A stretch of DNA of 54,833 nt from Lachnospiraceae bacterium. Lineage in GTDB: Bacteria > Bacillota > Clostridia > Lachnospirales > Lachnospiraceae. The translations under genes were made by a program, and so were the position numbers. The notes beneath the pieces were generated by a model that made no database searches, was not told where the DNA came from, and was given only the letters and a program-made list of their open reading frames with translations. Below, in pieces: positions 17,412 to 27,393 of the stretch; position 1 is the stretch's first letter, and each line of letters starts with the position of its first letter. Location of the stretch: the NCBI GenBank assembly GCA_029068555.1, contig JAIECJ010000067.1, forward strand, positions 1 through 54,833. Direction: 5' to 3'.

Positions 17412-17744
17412 CTGTTTTCCTCCTTTTGTATTCGCCTGCGTGTGCAGCCGGCTACAAATACCTCATAAAAAATATTTGTCATGTACAATACGATTTGTAA
17501 ATAGTATTGACAATGATTATGATATAGTATCCCGCTGTTTTTTGCAAGCAATTGTTGCTTTTAGCTTTTTGAATGTATGAATGTATGAATGTACCAATAA
17601 CCGGTCAGCAACTCTTTTCAATGTATTTGACAATTTGTTATTGCATTGATATAGAAAGGTATAGTATATTTAATTACGGAGTAGATAATAAAGACTTGGA
17701 TGGAGTTTGATAGAGGCTCTTGACAGAAAGGGTTGGTGTACAAA
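17412..17744. other. Intergenic region between divergent genes
   Basis: This 333-base gap holds the hydratase promoter (17627-17655), three tandem GAATGTAT units (about 17570-17594), and an A/T-rich stretch at 17509-17527 (GACAATGATTATGATATAG) that matches the classical Fur box at 13 of 19 positions. No small gene was recognised. Confidence 0.5.
17627..17655 (+). promoter_or_regulatory. Sigma-A-type promoter for the aconitase-family gene
   Basis: A consensus TTGACA (17627-17632) and TATAGA (17650-17655) are separated by exactly 17 bases. The start codon lies 90 bases downstream. Confidence 0.75.
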
Positions 17745-20033
17745 ATGATTCAGTTAATGGAAACAGGAGTTTACCTTGTAAATGGTACAGAGCTGGTTGC
17801 CGATAACACAGAGGCGGCTGCAGCCATCAAGGCAAGGACAGGCAGGGATGTGAATAAGGAGGAGGCAGCGCGGGAAACGATTGCCTACGGGATTTTGAAA
17901 AATCACAACACCTCTGACAATATGGATAAACTCAAGATTAAATTTGATAAATTGACATCACATGATATTACATTTGTGGGAATAATCCAGACAGCGCGTG
18001 CATCAGGGCTGACAAAATTTCCAGTGCCCTATGTGCTCACAAACTGTCACAATTCGCTCTGCGCGGTGGGCGGTACGATTAATGAGGATGATCATATGTT
18101 TGGACTTACCTGCGCCAAGAAATATGGCGGGGTGTACGTGCCGCCTCATCAGGCAGTTATTCACCAGTTCGCGCGCGAAATGCTTGCGGGCGGAGGCAGG
18201 ATGATACTCGGTTCGGACTCGCATACGCGTTATGGAGCGCTTGGAACGATGGCTATGGGCGAGGGCGGACCAGAACTTGTAAAGCAGCTTTTGAACCAGA
18301 CATATGACATCAATATGCCCGGAGTGGTCGCGGTATATCTTGAGGGAGAGCCGGTAAAGGGTGTGGGACCGCAGGATGTTGCGCTTGCGATTATCGGTGC
18401 AGTATTTAAGAATGGCTATGTCAAGAATAAAGTAATGGAATTTGTAGGACCTGGTGTGTCATCACTTTCTGCTGACTTCAGGATTGGCGTCGATGTCATG
18501 ACAACAGAGACAACCTGTCTGTCGTCTATCTGGAGGACGGATGCTGAAATCAGGGAATTTTATGATATTCATGGAAGGAGTGCGGATTATGCCGAGCTCA
18601 ATCCGGGGGATGTAGCGTACTACGACGGATGCATCAAGATTGATTTGGGCAAGGTGAGACCTATGATAGCCATGCCGTTCCACCCGAGCAATACCTACAC
18701 GATTGACGAGCTGAATGCAAACCTGATGGATATCCTTGATGACTGCGAGAAGAAAGCACTTGTCAGTCTCGACGGTGCGGTTGACTTTACGCTCAAGGAC
18801 AAGGTGAGAGACGGAAAACTATATGTGGAACAGGGAATCATTGCCGGGTGTGCAGGCGGCGGTTTCGAGAATATCTGTGCGGCTGCCGATATCCTTGACA
18901 ATGCAAGCATCGGTCCGGACGAGTTTACATTGAGTGTATATCCTGCGTCTATGCCGGTTTACATGGAGATTGTGAAAAACGGCTGTGCCGCGAAGCTGAT
19001 GCAGACAGGCGCTGTGTTGAAGACCGCTTTCTGTGGTCCCTGCTTTGGTGCGGGAGACACGCCTGCGAACAATGCGTTTTCTATCCGTCATTCCACAAGA
19101 AACTTCCCGAATCGTGAAGGCTCTAAGCTTCAGAGCGGGCAGATTGCATCTGTTGCGCTGATGGATGCGCGCTCGATTGCGGCAACAGCAGCAAACAAAG
19201 GATATCTGACACCAGCTACCGCGTTTGACGGTGACTTTACGAAGTATAAATATTTCTTTGACAGGAAAATTTATGAGAACCGTGTGTTTGACTCCAAGGG
19301 TGTTGCCGACGAGTCTGTTGAGATTAAGTTTGGTCCAAATATCAAGGATTGGCCCGCGATGGTCGAATTGACAGACAACCTCATGTTAAAGGTTGTTTCT
19401 GAGATACACGATCCGGTGACAACGACAGACGAGCTGATTCCGTCCGGGGAGACATCTTCTTACCGGTCAAATCCTCTGGGACTTGCAGAGTTCACATTGT
19501 CCCGCAAGGATCCAAACTATGTAAGACTTGCAAAAGAAATCCAGGCTGCGGAGAAAGCGAGAGAGGAGAGGGCGTGTCCGGTACAGAAATTCGCAGAGCT
19601 TGAGGACGCATGGAGAATGATGAAGACCATCACACCAGATGCAGACCGCAGCAATACAGGTATTGGAAGTACAATCTTTGCCGTAAAGCCAGGTGACGGC
19701 TCTGCAAGAGAACAGGCAGCAAGCTGCCAGAAGGTGCTCGGCGGATGGGCAAATATTGCGAACGAGTATGCGACTAAGAGATACCGTTCAAACCTGATTA
19801 ACTGGGGAATGCTGCCATTTATAATTAAGGAAGGCGAGCTTCCGTTTAAAAATCTTGATTACATCTACATACCAGGTATCAGAAAGGCGGTTGCGGATAA
19901 GGCTGATACCATCAAGGCTTATGTTGTTGGGAAAGATCGGAAAACGGAGTTTGAGCTGATGCTTGGCGAACTGACTGACGAGGAAAGACAGATTATATTA
20001 AAAGGATGTCTTATTAATTATAATCGGGTTTAG
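17745..20033 (+). CDS. Aconitase-family hydratase
   Basis: A protein of about 762 residues in the aconitase superfamily, which isomerises or hydrates carboxylic acids using a [4Fe-4S] cluster. The cluster ligands are apparent as the Cys of [12 protein letters not shown] and the Cys pair of [22 protein letters not shown] corresponds to the substrate-binding SNRNFEGR motif of aconitase, and [22 protein letters not shown] to the conserved DSHT region. The sequence is of the shorter, YbhJ-like type and not of AcnA or AcnB, so citrate/isocitrate activity is likely but unproven. ATG 17745 has GAAAGGG at 17726-17732; TTG 17733 and GTG 17736 in frame are less likely starts. It is a single-gene unit with its own promoter and terminator. 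Confidence 0.85.
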
Positions 20034-23329: not shown

Positions 23330-23338
23330 GTGAAGGAT

Positions 23339-23749
23339 ATGCTGGATGAAAAAGACCTACAGGCAATCGCACAACTGATGGATCAGAAGTTACAACCGAT
23401 TGGCAGCAGACTGGATCGGATTGAAAGCAGACTGGATGGAATAGAAGAACGTCTTGACAGAGTAGAAGAACGTCTTGACAGAGTAGAAGAACGTCTTGAC
23501 AGAGTAGAAGAACGTCTTGACAGAGTGGAAGAACGTCTTGACAGGGTGGAAAGTGACATCAACGAATTAAAGCGGGATGTGAATGAGCTCAAAAAGAGTC
23601 AAACGCAAATGGAGAAGCAGATTAGTGCGCGATTTGATTATCTGACGGAAGCGATAGCAAAAGTAGACCGGCGCCTGGCTTACAATGTACAGCTGCTAAG
23701 CCAGACAGACAAGGAAATTATGCGCGATATGGATGCCCTGCGGGCATAA
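23339..23749 (+). CDS. Coiled-coil protein with five tandem heptad repeats
   Basis: A protein of about 136 residues predicted to be almost wholly alpha-helical coiled coil. The centre consists of tandem copies of the heptad LDRVEER (about residues 38-72), encoded by near-identical 21-base DNA repeats, flanked by related but diverged heptads (LDRIESR, INELKRDVNELKKS). There is no signal peptide or membrane segment. Function unknown; such proteins act as oligomerising or scaffold proteins. GGGAGG lies 10 bases before the ATG; a GTG at 23330 in the same frame is an alternative. The CarD-like gene follows 31 bases later on the same strand. A family B repeat ends immediately upstream and may carry part of its leader. 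Confidence 0.75.
   Translation: MLDEKDLQAIAQLMDQKLQPIGSRLDRIESRLDGIEERLDRVEERLDRVEERLDRVEERLDRVEERLDRVESDINELKRDVNELKKSQTQMEKQISARFDYLTEAIAKVDRRLAYNVQLLSQTDKEIMRDMDALRA
23440..23550 (+). repeat. Tandem 21-bp repeats inside the coiled-coil gene
   Basis: About five copies of GAACGTCTTGACAGAGTAGA(A), differing by at most two bases each. Each copy encodes one heptad. The identity at DNA level points to recent expansion, and copy number could change by slippage without a frameshift. Confidence 0.85.
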
Positions 23750-23780: not shown

Positions 23781-24080
23781 TTGTTTGAGAAAAAGGAAAT
23801 CATATACAGCGAAACGATTGGCGTATGCGTGGTTGATGATATTGTAAAACTTGCTGATAGCAGGAAAGATACATATAATTATTATCTCTTGCGCTCGATT
23901 TTCGATAAAACGAAAAGGGCGTATATTCCTGTTGAAAATCATACGGTACAGCTTCGAAATCTCATTACGTTCGAGGAAGCGCTTGCAATTCAACATGATG
24001 CCCACTTCAATAAGGAGTCTGAACAGGTAAAAGGTGAAGTCAGGTATGTGATTGATAAAAACGCATATGACCGCAAATAA
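23781..24080 (+). CDS. Small CarD/TRCF-interaction-domain-like protein
   Basis: A 99-residue protein starting at TTG, supported by GGAGGG six bases before it. The pattern GVCVVDDIVKL ... NYYLLRSIFDKTKRAYIPVENH ... LRNLIT resembles the N-terminal RNA-polymerase-binding domain of CarD/CdnL and of the Mfd protein (CarD_CdnL_TRCF). The C-terminal helical DNA-binding domain of full-length CarD (about 160 residues) is missing. It may bind the RNA polymerase beta subunit, but a short form like this could act differently. Neighbours: coiled-coil gene upstream and GH127 gene 24 bases downstream, all on one strand. Confidence 0.6.
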   Translation: MFEKKEIIYSETIGVCVVDDIVKLADSRKDTYNYYLLRSIFDKTKRAYIPVENHTVQLRNLITFEEALAIQHDAHFNKESEQVKGEVRYVIDKNAYDRK

Positions 24081-24104: not shown

Positions 24105-26138
24105 ATGGACAGAGAACAATTTAGCACACCACTGCCCCTTGGAAGGATGCAGGTAACGGATGCATTCTGGAAAAAAGAAATGGAACTTGTCCGCAAAGAG
24201 GTGATTCCCTACCAGTGGGCAGCACTCAACGATAATGTTGAGGGGGCGCCGCCGAGTTACTGTATGCGGAATTTCAGGATAGCAGGAAAGATGAACAGGC
24301 AAAAGAGACAGCTTGGTACGTCATACGTAGAACCGAAATACACATTTAGAGGATTCGAGGCGCTGCCTGAGGATTTAGGGCATCTAGAGGACAAGTTTTA
24401 TGGATTTGTATTTCAGGACACTGATTTTTCCAAGTGGATTGAGGCGGTAGGTTATTCTCTGTCTCAGCACCCGGACGCAGCGCTTGAAAAACTGGCGGAT
24501 GGAGCGATAGACATAGTATGTGCGGCACAACAGGAAGATGGTTATCTGGATTCCTATTATATCATAAATGGCAAGGATATGATTTTTTCAAATCTGCGGG
24601 ATCATCATGAGCTTTATTGCTTCGGTCACCTTGTGGAGGGGGCAGTGTCCTACTATGAGGCAACAGGAAAGGATAAGCTTTTGAAGGCCGCAGAGCGTTT
24701 TGCGGATTATATTCATAATTATTTTGGACCTGAGGAGGGAAAGTGTAAGGGCTACCCTGGACACGAGATTGCGGAGATGGCGCTTATCAGACTTTATGAG
24801 GTAACAAGGAATCCAAAGTATTTGAATCTCAGTGTGTTTTTTGTCGAGCAAAGGGGGCAGAAGCCTTACTATTTTGACAAAGAGGAGCATCCTGATATCA
24901 GGGATAAGTCTCCTGATGGAATCCGGTATGTCTATAATCAGGCGCATCGGCCTGTAAGGGATCAGTCTGAGGCAGTAGGTCATGCTGTACGGGCTGTTTA
25001 TTTGTATTCCGGCATGGCAGATATCGCACGCCTGAATCAGGACGAGAGTATGTACGAGGCATGTGAGCGGTTGTGGAATGATATTGTGGGAAAGAAAATG
25101 TACATCACGGGCGGCATTGGCAGTACGCATCTTGGTGAGGCATTTTCTTTTGCATATGATTTGCCGAATGATACAGCTTATGCGGAGACCTGTGCTTCGA
25201 TAGGGCTTGTGTTTTTTGCGCGCAGAATGTTGCAGATGAAGCCGGACACGAAGTATGCCGATGTCATGGAGAGAGCGCTCTATAATGGAATATTAAGTGG
25301 TATGGCACTGGATGGAAAGAGCTTTTTTTATGTGAATCCTTTAGAAGTAAATCCGGAAGCGTGCCGCCGGGATGAAAGAAAGTTCCATGTGAAGCCGGTG
25401 AGGCAGAAGTGGTTTGGCTGTGCATGCTGTCCGCCTAATATTGCAAGACTGGTAAGCTCCATCGGTTCCTATGCTTATACAGAAAATGACAATACGCTTT
25501 TTGTACATCTGTACATAGGAGGCTTGCTTATAAAGAATATGGGTGACAAGGAGGCAGATGTCGCCATAGCTTCTAACCTTCCGTGGGATGGGGCAGTATG
25601 TATCAGGGTGCGTGCAAAGGGTACAGATTTCCGGCTGGCGCTTCGCATTCCGGACTGGTGCAGCAGATACTATCTTGAAAATGCGGATCGCTATGAAACT
25701 ATGCAGAAGGATGGTTACCTTTATCTGTCCAAAGTATGGGAGGACGAGGAGGTAATAAATCTTACTTTTACCATGGAAGTGCGGTTGATGGAAGCATCGC
25801 CTATGGTGAAAGAAAACATTGGGAAGGCAGCGCTGATGCGGGGACCTGTAGTATATTGTCTGGAAGAGGCGGATAACGGAAAGGATTTGCATATGCTGTC
25901 AATAAGGAAAGATACTGACTTTACCGTACTGGATAAAGAGATACAGGGAACAGTGGTGAAAGCAGTACAGCTTAACGGGTGCAGGAGAGTGGTGGAAAAT
26001 TCTGACAGGAGTGAACTTTACAGTCCGATAGGTAAAGAATTTATGGAAGATATCCTGCTGACATATATACCATATTATTCATGGGCAAACCGCGGGGAGA
26101 ATGAGATGCAGGTGTGGACTGCAATAGAAAAGAAATAA
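24105..26138 (+). CDS. Glycoside hydrolase family 127, probable beta-L-arabinofuranosidase
   Basis: A 677-residue cytoplasmic enzyme (no signal peptide) of the DUF1680/GH127 family. Members release beta-L-arabinofuranose from plant glycans and use a zinc-bound cysteine as nucleophile. The zinc and catalytic residues can be seen: the Glu and Cys of YAETCASIGL and the Cys pair of GCACCPPNIARL. An (alpha/alpha)6 barrel is expected in the first two-thirds, then beta domains. AATGGAGG precedes the ATG. As it is cytoplasmic it would act on imported oligosaccharides; no sugar transporter lies in the window. It may be co-transcribed with the CarD-like gene. Confidence 0.9.
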   Translation: MDREQFSTPLPLGRMQVTDAFWKKEMELVRKEVIPYQWAALNDNVEGAPPSYCMRNFRIAGKMNRQKRQLGTSYVEPKYTFRGFEALPEDLGHLEDKFYGFVFQDTDFSKWIEAVGYSLSQHPDAALEKLADGAIDIVCAAQQEDGYLDSYYIINGKDMIFSNLRDHHELYCFGHLVEGAVSYYEATGKDKLLKAAERFADYIHNYFGPEEGKCKGYPGHEIAEMALIRLYEVTRNPKYLNLSVFFVEQRGQKPYYFDKEEHPDIRDKSPDGIRYVYNQAHRPVRDQSEAVGHAVRAVYLYSGMADIARLNQDESMYEACERLWNDIVGKKMYITGGIGSTHLGEAFSFAYDLPNDTAYAETCASIGLVFFARRMLQMKPDTKYADVMERALYNGILSGMALDGKSFFYVNPLEVNPEACRRDERKFHVKPVRQKWFGCACCPPNIARLVSSIGSYAYTENDNTLFVHLYIGGLLIKNMGDKEADVAIASNLPWDGAVCIRVRAKGTDFRLALRIPDWCSRYYLENADRYETMQKDGYLYLSKVWEDEEVINLTFTMEVRLMEASPMVKENIGKAALMRGPVVYCLEEADNGKDLHMLSIRKDTDFTVLDKEIQGTVVKAVQLNGCRRVVENSDRSELYSPIGKEFMEDILLTYIPYYSWANRGENEMQVWTAIEKK

Positions 26139-26296
26139 TATGTAATAAAATCGCGAAAAAGGTCATTTATGCCAAATTGAAATTGTATTATAGGTAAAAC
26201 TGCCGATTAGTTGTCAGATAATACAAGAAATACTATGCATAATAACTGATAAGTCATAGGCAAATTGCCAGTATTGAAAAAAATCAGAATAAACTA
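26139..26296. other. Spacer upstream of the candidate ncRNA
   Basis: No terminator with a T-run was found after the GH127 gene. Small imperfect hairpins (CTATG ... CATAG around 26232-26262) are present but nothing recognisable. Confidence 0.4.
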
Positions 26297-26325
26297 TTGC
26301 AAATAGAAAAAAGAAGTGTTATTAT
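26297..26325 (+). promoter_or_regulatory. Sigma-A-type promoter of the candidate ncRNA
   Basis: TTGCAA (26297-26302), a 17-base spacer and TATTAT (26320-26325). The first downstream protein start is at 26854, more than 500 bases away, so the promoter must drive a long untranslated transcript. Confidence 0.7.
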
Positions 26326-26332
26326 ACAATTA

Positions 26333-26800
26333 CACCAAAGAAAGAGAGAATAAATACAAAAGGCGAAGTAATAAGGTACAAAAGAGCTTTTGTAAAGCAT
26401 TTGATAAAGTACCATCAGGAAGCAAATGCAATGTTCGGTAACTGACAACCAATCAGTATAAAGGGTATACTTAAGAAAGGAGATGAGTCCCTTGGCAACA
26501 TTAGAAACCTGAAATCTAACAAGGCAAATTCCCTTAATAATATGAAAAGAAGAAATGCAGCTATGAAGATAGCGGAGTAGAAACATTAAGCAGAGAATTT
26601 TGAGATAGAAAGTTAGAAAACAGGAAAATAGAAAGAGTACCATAAGGTCATAGAGAGACCGAAGTACAAAAAGAGAAAAAAGTAATAAAAAATAAGTACG
26701 GATAGAGGAATCCGGAGAAAGAGGAAAAAATTGAATACTGCATCTAATTAGAGCGGTCGTTGTATCATTCAAATAGGAAGGTATGACGACCGCTCGGTTT
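26333..26800 (+). ncRNA. Candidate large structured non-coding RNA
   Basis: About 470 bases, very purine-rich on this strand, with no plausible protein and many short helices separated by A-rich linkers. Helices seen: GCATTTG 26397-26403 with CAAATGC 26423-26429; GGTAC 26375-26379 with GTACC 26409-26413 inside that loop, which makes a pseudoknot; ACTGA/TCAGT 26441-26457; AAGGG/CCCTT 26461-26493; TTAGA/TCTAA 26501-26519; GCTAT-GAAG-ATAGC 26560-26573; nested GTAC/GTAC and GGTC/GACC 26637-26667; CGGAT/ATCCG 26699-26714; and a 3'-terminal 10-bp stem GAGCGGTCGT 26751-26760 with ACGACCGCTC 26786-26795. The size and texture resemble the large ornate RNA classes of Firmicutes (ROOL, OLE, GOLLD), but I cannot match it to one. 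A long leader of the phosphatase gene at 26854 is the main alternative. Confidence 0.6.
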
Positions 26801-26853
26801 ATGTGCATATGGACTCTTTCACCGGCATCGGTGCGGACAGGAGGTTAAAGGAG

Positions 26854-27393
26854 ATGGCACAAGTTTATTTTACAAGACATGGGCAGACAATATGGAATGT
26901 GGAGAACAAGATATGCGGTGCGACAGATATTGCACTGACGGAGTGGGGACGTGAGCAGGCGCGGGAGCTTGGCAGAAAAATATTGGATGAACGGCTCTGC
27001 ATTGACGAGATACTGTATTCACCACTGATGCGGGCAAGGGATACCGCTTTTGAAGTCGCAGAGATTACAGGCATTCCGGCGAGGGAGGATATCCGGTTAA
27101 AGGAACAGAACTTTGGGAAATATGAGGCAACACCAAGGAATGGCGAGACGTTTCAGGAGGCAAAGAAAAGTTTTGTTAATCACTTTGACGGCGGAGAGAC
27201 AATGCTTCATCTTGCGCAGCGCATTTACAATCTGCTTGATGAAATCAGGGCGGAGGCAGAAACAAAAACATATCTTCTGGTGGCACACAACGGCATTGCA
27301 AGAGTGGTGCATTCGTATTTCTATGATATGACTAATGAAGAATATTCCGCATTTGGTATCAGAAATTGCGAGATACGGCGGTATGAATTTTAG
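26854..27393 (+). CDS. Histidine phosphatase superfamily protein
   Basis: A 179-residue phosphoglycerate-mutase-like phosphatase. Catalytic histidine in YFTRHGQTIWN near the N-terminus, second conserved His in LLVAHNGIARVV, and the proton donor region YSPLMRARDTAFEVA. It is too short for a glycolytic dPGM, so a phosphatase acting on small phosphoesters is more likely; the substrate is unknown. AGGAGG and a second GGAG precede ATG 26854; upstream in-frame codons to 26803 lack this support. It sits directly after the candidate ncRNA and before a bidirectional terminator. Confidence 0.85.
   Translation: MAQVYFTRHGQTIWNVENKICGATDIALTEWGREQARELGRKILDERLCIDEILYSPLMRARDTAFEVAEITGIPAREDIRLKEQNFGKYEATPRNGETFQEAKKSFVNHFDGGETMLHLAQRIYNLLDEIRAEAETKTYLLVAHNGIARVVHSYFYDMTNEEYSAFGIRNCEIRRYEF

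Follow-up and report, generated by a model that had tools for sequence, protein, structure and literature searches.

The window analysed here, a stretch of 54,833 nt of a Lachnospiraceae contig, contains a gap of 715 bases between the stop codon of a GH127 gene (24105–26138) and the likely ATG (26854) of a histidine phosphatase gene assigned by Pfam. In agreement with the original prediction, which had seen no credible gene in these 715 bases, Pfam returned no supported gene inside the gap. A minus-strand ORF of 174 amino acids (26284–26808) was rejected as a gene, since it has no Pfam match and is not conserved; across the 27 aligned regions described below, window included, the longest stop-free stretch of the minus strand varies from 54 to 176 amino acids. 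The top strand is as purine-rich as had been noted: purines make up 68.7% of positions 26326–26750, a value reached by 160 of 54408 stretches of equal length on either strand. A tRNA scan of the whole window was empty. The neighbours of the gap are metabolic and housekeeping genes, and the earlier impression that no phage genes surround it was borne out by Pfam on 16 window proteins, which revealed no phage module, and by PHROGs on 10 window proteins, which gave only broad or coiled-coil matches, one of them XhlA-like. The coiled-coil protein encoded at 23330–23749 has XhlA as its top Pfam match (E = 2.5e-15) among 85 families and matches 43 PHROGs.

On the plus strand, which carries all promoter, RNA and mini-ORF elements described for the gap, a promoter consisting of the -35 element TTGCAA, a 17-nt spacer and the extended -10 element TGTTATTAT is located at 26297–26325. 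It had been predicted at this position, and the comparison of homologues upholds it: the TTG of the -35 element is found in 27 of 27 aligned regions and the strict match in 17 of them, while the pattern itself (TTGCAA-17-TATTAT with TG extension) occurs at chance level, with 3 found and 2.9 expected. The genus homologues already align from position 26240, and the conserved upstream region (26240–26296) contains the half-sites AACTGA ... CAGTATT, a possible activator site or UP element. The transcript is expected to start near 26333 and to end near 26800, resulting in a predicted length of about 465 nt for the RNA in the window.

In order to collect homologues, a DNA search was performed in 60 genomes, comprising the genome of the window, 35 more of the genus and 24 of the order. 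Within its own genome the query matched a single place, the window itself. Matches in the genus extend down to E = 3e-46, and none outside the genus was better than 8e-4 among these 60 genomes. From the DNA matches 27 regions were aligned, window included.

The predicted RNA terminates in a 16-bp hairpin (26751–26795), in which 26751–26766 pair with 26780–26795. The 10-bp stem originally proposed at the 3' end is thus real, yet longer. In alignment A4 (42 sequences), 98.0% of the 661 hairpin cells are paired, 14 of the 16 pairs have changed on both sides, and 0 of 500 shuffles reach the observed covariation score. The hairpin is likely a terminator, with a weak U-tract in the window. The folding energy z is -5.5 with the terminal stem and only -2.2 without it.

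Four further helices were followed in alignment A6, which has 26 rows; the genus locus L024 was left out of A1 and A6, and L025, L101, L106 and other extra genus loci are not in A6. One of the four is a long-range helix (26515–26617; 26515–26520 with 26612–26617), which was not part of the original prediction and displays changes on both sides in five of seven pairs, with 90.7% of cells paired. The hairpin GCATTTG/CAAATGC (26397–26429; arms 26397–26403 and 26423–26429) had been predicted, and its pairing stands, with 87.2% of cells paired and 7 of 26 rows gapped there; its covariation is weak, the three pairs changed on both sides each doing so in one row only. The pseudoknot GGTAC/GTACC (26375–26379/26409–26413) proposed to involve the loop of this hairpin found no support, since the window alone among the 26 rows has the GTACC insert. 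An inner helix between CTTAAT (26533–26538) and ATTAAG (26585–26590), spanning 26533–26590, is possible; 83.1% of its cells are paired and no covariation was detected in A6. Ahead of the tail, the small hairpin CGGAT/ATCCG (26699–26714) shows three of five pairs changed on both sides and 69.2% of cells paired, and is absent from a large part of the genus. Considered jointly, the four genus helices beat all 500 shuffles in four of five covariation measures, the fifth (further pair types) being no better than shuffles (218 of 500). Covariation, the check suggested with the original prediction, is hence present in the terminal hairpin and the long-range helix, and the locus almost certainly represents a conserved structured RNA class with its own promoter.

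Embedded in this RNA are two putative mini-ORFs preceded by Shine-Dalgarno (SD) words, which had not been recognized before. The first, identified by sequence comparison, reads TTG GCA ACA TTA GAA ACC TGA (M-A-T-L-E-T; 26492–26512) and follows the SD AGGAG (26478–26482); an SD-like word is located upstream in 26 of 26 start-bearing rows (of 27). The long-range helix begins 23 nt after its start codon. Mini-ORF2 reads TTG AAT ACT GCA TCT AAT TAG (26731–26751) and follows the SD-like GAGG (26721–26724), with an SD-like word at this column in 26 of 27 rows. Its start codon lies 20 nt upstream of the terminal hairpin in the window, and its stop codon overlaps the first base of that hairpin. A scan of the genus alignment yielded six columns in which most rows carry a start codon; an SD precedes it in most rows at two of them only, namely those of mini-ORF1 and mini-ORF2. 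The same result, again six columns with only these two led by an SD in most rows, was obtained for the longer relatives introduced below, which are other sequences, with rows cut at mini-ORF1 anchors of our choosing.

Among 56 distinct starts of mini-ORF1, TTG occurs 40 times, ATG 12 times, GTG three times and AAG once, a count inflated by the anchoring of the core loci on NTG and leaving out L071 and L089, where no mini-ORF1 is seen. In the genus the frame comprises 2–8 codons, with the stop after two codons in L019. For mini-ORF2, 65 distinct tails start with TTG (62), ATG (1), GTG (1) or CTG (1), and here the count is inflated by tail models trained on TTG tails, which find no tail in L083 and L219. 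The frame has six codons in 58 of the 65 tails, seven in four and five in one, the exceptions being L086 with three codons and L071 without a stop.

Outside the genus, the relatives are longer (stretches of 490–1039 nt) and their core is an H-type pseudoknot formed by CAATATGAG/CTCATATTG and GTGGTAA/TTACCAC. This pseudoknot, likewise beyond the original prediction, was found in 28 of 40 loci, near-duplicates counted. Alignment A5 is composed of 27 long-form loci picked because the pseudoknot had already been found in them (L085 added, L138 and L202 omitted), a choice of rows that inflates the 98.9% of paired cells; changes on both sides are seen in 10 of the 17 pairs, and the score exceeds that of every shuffle. 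A loose pseudoknot search matched 38 of 40 loci, yet 176 of 400 shuffles as well, and only the covariation count was therefore used. The pseudoknot is absent from the window. However, the genus member L024 combines the long-form letters CAATATG, GTGGTAA and TACCAC with the genus tail and thereby ties the short and long forms together. The window holds, at 26297–26800, the short form of this class of large RNAs. In the long form, the distance from start codon to helix is 22–25 nt (29 in L083).

A third clade, found through the core-model loci and including L083 and L086 from the tail search, carries a longer first frame. In 33 of 33 loci counted (33 of 35; the pattern missed L083 and L258), ORF1 comprises 23–35 codons and is in frame with the pseudoknot, at a start-to-pseudoknot spacing of 24 or 27 nt only, while in the other two frames the first stops come mostly early. 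A QYVSGMA-like peptide core recurs in most of the clade (L258, L260–L267, L269–L275, L277–L289). Such a frame would be expected if the RNA were the mRNA of a small protein, with the ORF1 peptide as product, the rest as a long 3' untranslated region and the ORF of the window as a shrunken remnant. The frame is, however, no longer than seven codons in 18 of 33 non-genus rows and as short as noted above in the genus, where the structure persists, and six of the third-clade peptides have no match in NCBIfam or Pfam at E up to 10, so that we regard a small-protein mRNA as very unlikely. The peptide core strings are also absent from the literature searched.

The tails of the third clade differ from those described above. 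Most show TTA, TTT or similar at the place of mini-ORF2, not TTG; TTGAAT occurs in 8 of 35 tails, of which L285 and L288 alone continue for five codons up to a stop. No constant mini-ORF was found in this tail. A looser tail search found 19 of 46 loci and, for comparison, 30 of 460 shuffles, some of its matches looking like chance, and the hairpin finder chose unlikely hairpins in some rows (e.g. L274, L279, L285, L251). Many third-clade ends consist of a hairpin followed by T-runs. Judged by eye, TCGGAG downstream of the pseudoknot seems complementary to CTCCGA upstream of the terminator, and L278 and L288 seem to carry compensatory changes there.

Most of these tails retain an AAATTxAATA-like element but lack a start codon there, which raises the question whether the start modules are translated at all. 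In a purely structural RNA, the GGAG/GAGG words and NTG triplets would be protein or 16S binding motifs and never be read. In favour of this reading, the peptides of both mini-ORFs are hardly conserved, and the long-form pseudoknot constrains the same letters as ORF1. Against it, an in-frame stop follows after 5–7 codons in 63 of 65 tails, despite codon gains or losses in some. The stops of mini-ORF2 interchange between TAG (47), TAA (10) and TGA (7) in the 64 tails with a stop, and TGG occurs in 0 of 63 (P = 2e-5 under independent columns, shared descent ignored). Moreover, the first letter of the mini-ORF1 start is A, T or G and not C, and ORF1 keeps its frame with the pseudoknot throughout the counted third-clade loci. 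We therefore consider a purely structural RNA improbable and translation of the mini-ORFs likely. The original description as a large structured non-coding RNA accordingly holds for structure and class; its purely non-coding nature is not supported, given the two conserved SD-led frames.

Whether the RNA serves a neighbouring gene was assessed by comparing flanking ORFs at 53 loci (55 in a wider set). From clade to clade the neighbours, downstream genes among them, are not the same. At 36 of the 53 loci the closest ORF downstream lies on the strand of the RNA, at 14 it lies on the opposite strand and at three there is none; seven of the 14 belong to one cluster and may be antisense frames. Convergent genes lie 25–84 nt away on the downstream side in L154 (GHKL kinase), L079 (NYN protein) and L116 (conserved, without Pfam match). 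Since the neighbours differ and are convergent in these three loci, the RNA appears to need no downstream gene. This bears on the possibility of a long leader with ribosome-mediated attenuation of the next gene, in which mini-ORF2 would be the leader peptide, as in the attenuators trpL, tnaC and ermC, where a short frame is set against a hairpin. The stop of mini-ORF2 on the hairpin, the weak U-tract in the window and the predominance of co-oriented downstream ORFs all suit a leader; unlike trpL, tnaC and ermC, the RNA described here has no constant downstream gene and faces convergent neighbours in some loci, and the T-runs behind many third-clade hairpins likewise argue against attenuation, which we judge quite unlikely.

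The distribution of the RNA was determined with three models. The tail model R1 scores at least 67 bits in 30 of 38 genus genomes, the genome of the window included, with two weak matches and six genomes without one; in the genome of the window it scores 91 bits at the locus itself and matches the opposite strand of the same hairpin weakly. At least two strong copies are present in five genomes (G006, G012, G019, G031, G032). Across the family, 44 of 250 genomes are matched by R1 at E up to 0.01, 63 of 397 by the broader tail model R2 and 80 of 397 by R3, a sequence-only model of the long-form core, with R2 and R3 taken at E up to 0.001 and including weak, unconfirmed matches. R2 and R3, which cover different parts, lie on the same strand 288–814 nt apart in 31 genomes. 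In class-wide samples R2 matched 7 of 291 genomes; two of these belong to the family and score strongly, the other five score about 42 bits at most. R3 matched 3 of 391, of which two are family genomes and the third scores 20 bits. Named genomes were scanned with a pattern, which gave 89 stretches; when the 80 loci listed were rescored with R1, 38 rows in 36 loci exceeded 40 bits. Their records are labelled Lachnospiraceae (among others the isolates A4 and COE1, UBA7110 and IMSAGC_011), Acetatifactor (two), Blautia (two), Roseburia, Eubacterium and, in one case, Bacteroides. The remaining loci scored below 30 bits and include clear chance matches in other phyla. The Bacteroides locus (L121, 61 bits) is probably a mis-binned contig, since near-identical core letters occur in locus L202 of G451, a family genome that consists of one contig. 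As far as these searches reach, the RNA class is found in Lachnospiraceae, a family among the commonest gut bacteria, and outside it only as weak matches and L121. Phage, plasmid and viral collections yielded only short, weak or chance matches, among them one 61-base stretch in two copies of one phage (E = 0.04) and three viral-contig pattern matches judged by eye to be chance.

Comparison with known RNA classes revealed no counterpart. Rfam 15 at gathering gave no match to the window, yet R3 reaches about a fifth of the family genomes; a search of 26100–26900 at E up to 10 gave no match to ROOL, GOLLD, OLE or raiA, and in 40 homologous loci no family passed the gathering threshold. Below the threshold, most rows belonged to miRNA, snoRNA and sRNA families. 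With this Rfam search, also suggested with the original prediction, its alternative of a ROOL/GOLLD/OLE member or a new class is settled in favour of the new class. The literature searched, mostly without subscription papers, contained no description of this RNA. Resemblance to tmRNA is limited to a similar size and a few codons read by the ribosome; tmRNA identity was rejected, as ARAGORN found none in the window and the RF00023 match of the genome lies elsewhere (G000:C173, 148.5 bits), and so was RNase P, whose sub-cutoff RF00011 match also lies elsewhere. RNAIII of Staphylococcus aureus, a large RNA with a regulatory role, codes for a small peptide as well; it stems from an unrelated taxon, whereas the frames of the window have six codons each, and the sequences were compared through Rfam only. 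Closest in general character are the large ornate RNAs GOLLD, ROOL and OLE, which resemble the RNA described here in size class, in helices with pseudoknots and in a function that is unknown or partly known, and share its A-rich linkers. Unlike these, it is chromosomal, lacks a nearby phage module or tRNA and has SD-led mini-ORFs. PMC12286853 treats ROOL and GOLLD as linked to phages and as lacking a described function, and mentions that ribosomes were reported to bind GOLLD in pull-downs; the term 'Shine-Dalgarno' is absent from its main text. Another conserved structured RNA of Clostridia is the raiA motif or ModT RNA, reported to be among the most abundant and stable RNAs of C. difficile (PMC11706538, which does not contain the term 'open reading frame'). 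The raiA motif RNA that has been studied has 205 nt, compared with about 465 nt in the window and 490–1039 nt in the long-form stretches, and its model gave no match in the Rfam search.

Both start modules share one geometry: an SD is followed by ATG, GTG or TTG and then by a very short frame, with a base-paired helix close behind it. An initiating ribosome covers about 15 nt downstream of the start, and with the start codon about 20–25 nt upstream of the helix it would fit without touching the helix. Ribosomes probably initiate at both modules, and the RNA would then act as a dual-function, ribosome-engaged regulator. A ribosome reaching the stop of mini-ORF2 would push into the terminal hairpin and open it. 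A second element could act on the same start: a conserved UUCGG (26434–26438) can pair, with its flanks, with the start region of mini-ORF2 and might mask its start codon. The pairing test gives weak evidence for this, with own combinations at 12.8 and swapped ones at 12.2, and 2.6% of permutations reaching the observed mean. Mini-ORF translation could then switch the RNA between folds, by which it would sense the translation state. Drawn from the geometry and this pairing test, such a translation-driven fold switch is a tentative proposal that we hold to be doubtful. The reading we prefer, with a probability of roughly 0.55, is that of an autonomous gene for a ribosome-engaged RNA, with mini-ORF translation as its proposed switch. 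A variant, which we think unlikely, is a family-wide ribosome-docking RNA, whose two start sites would hold or count ribosomes, e.g. idle initiation complexes or a ribosome pair, in order to sense or buffer translation capacity, with mini-ORF2 reading opening the hairpin. If ribosomes do engage the RNA, a single molecule would unite micro-ORF translation with a large RNA structure, and the role of large bacterial RNAs could be put to the test with it.

Some features of the surroundings recur between loci. Locus L003 has two tandem copies of the RNA (652–1360 and 1451–2036), about 800 nt apart, and in four other genomes of the genus the strong copies number two or three. Upstream of the RNA, the window encodes a small protein (23781–24080) whose match to the CarD/TRCF RID domain stays below the cutoff, and the cluster of this protein is found upstream in 11 of 53 loci, in both orientations (15 of 55 in the wider comparison). 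An aconitase gene, at 17733–20033 in the window, lies upstream of the RNA in short-form and long-form loci alike (L068, L071, L072, L110, L129, L138 and L168, plus the window), which hints at a common ancestral site of the RNA; the aconitase proteins of the window and L129 are 91% identical over 191 amino acids.
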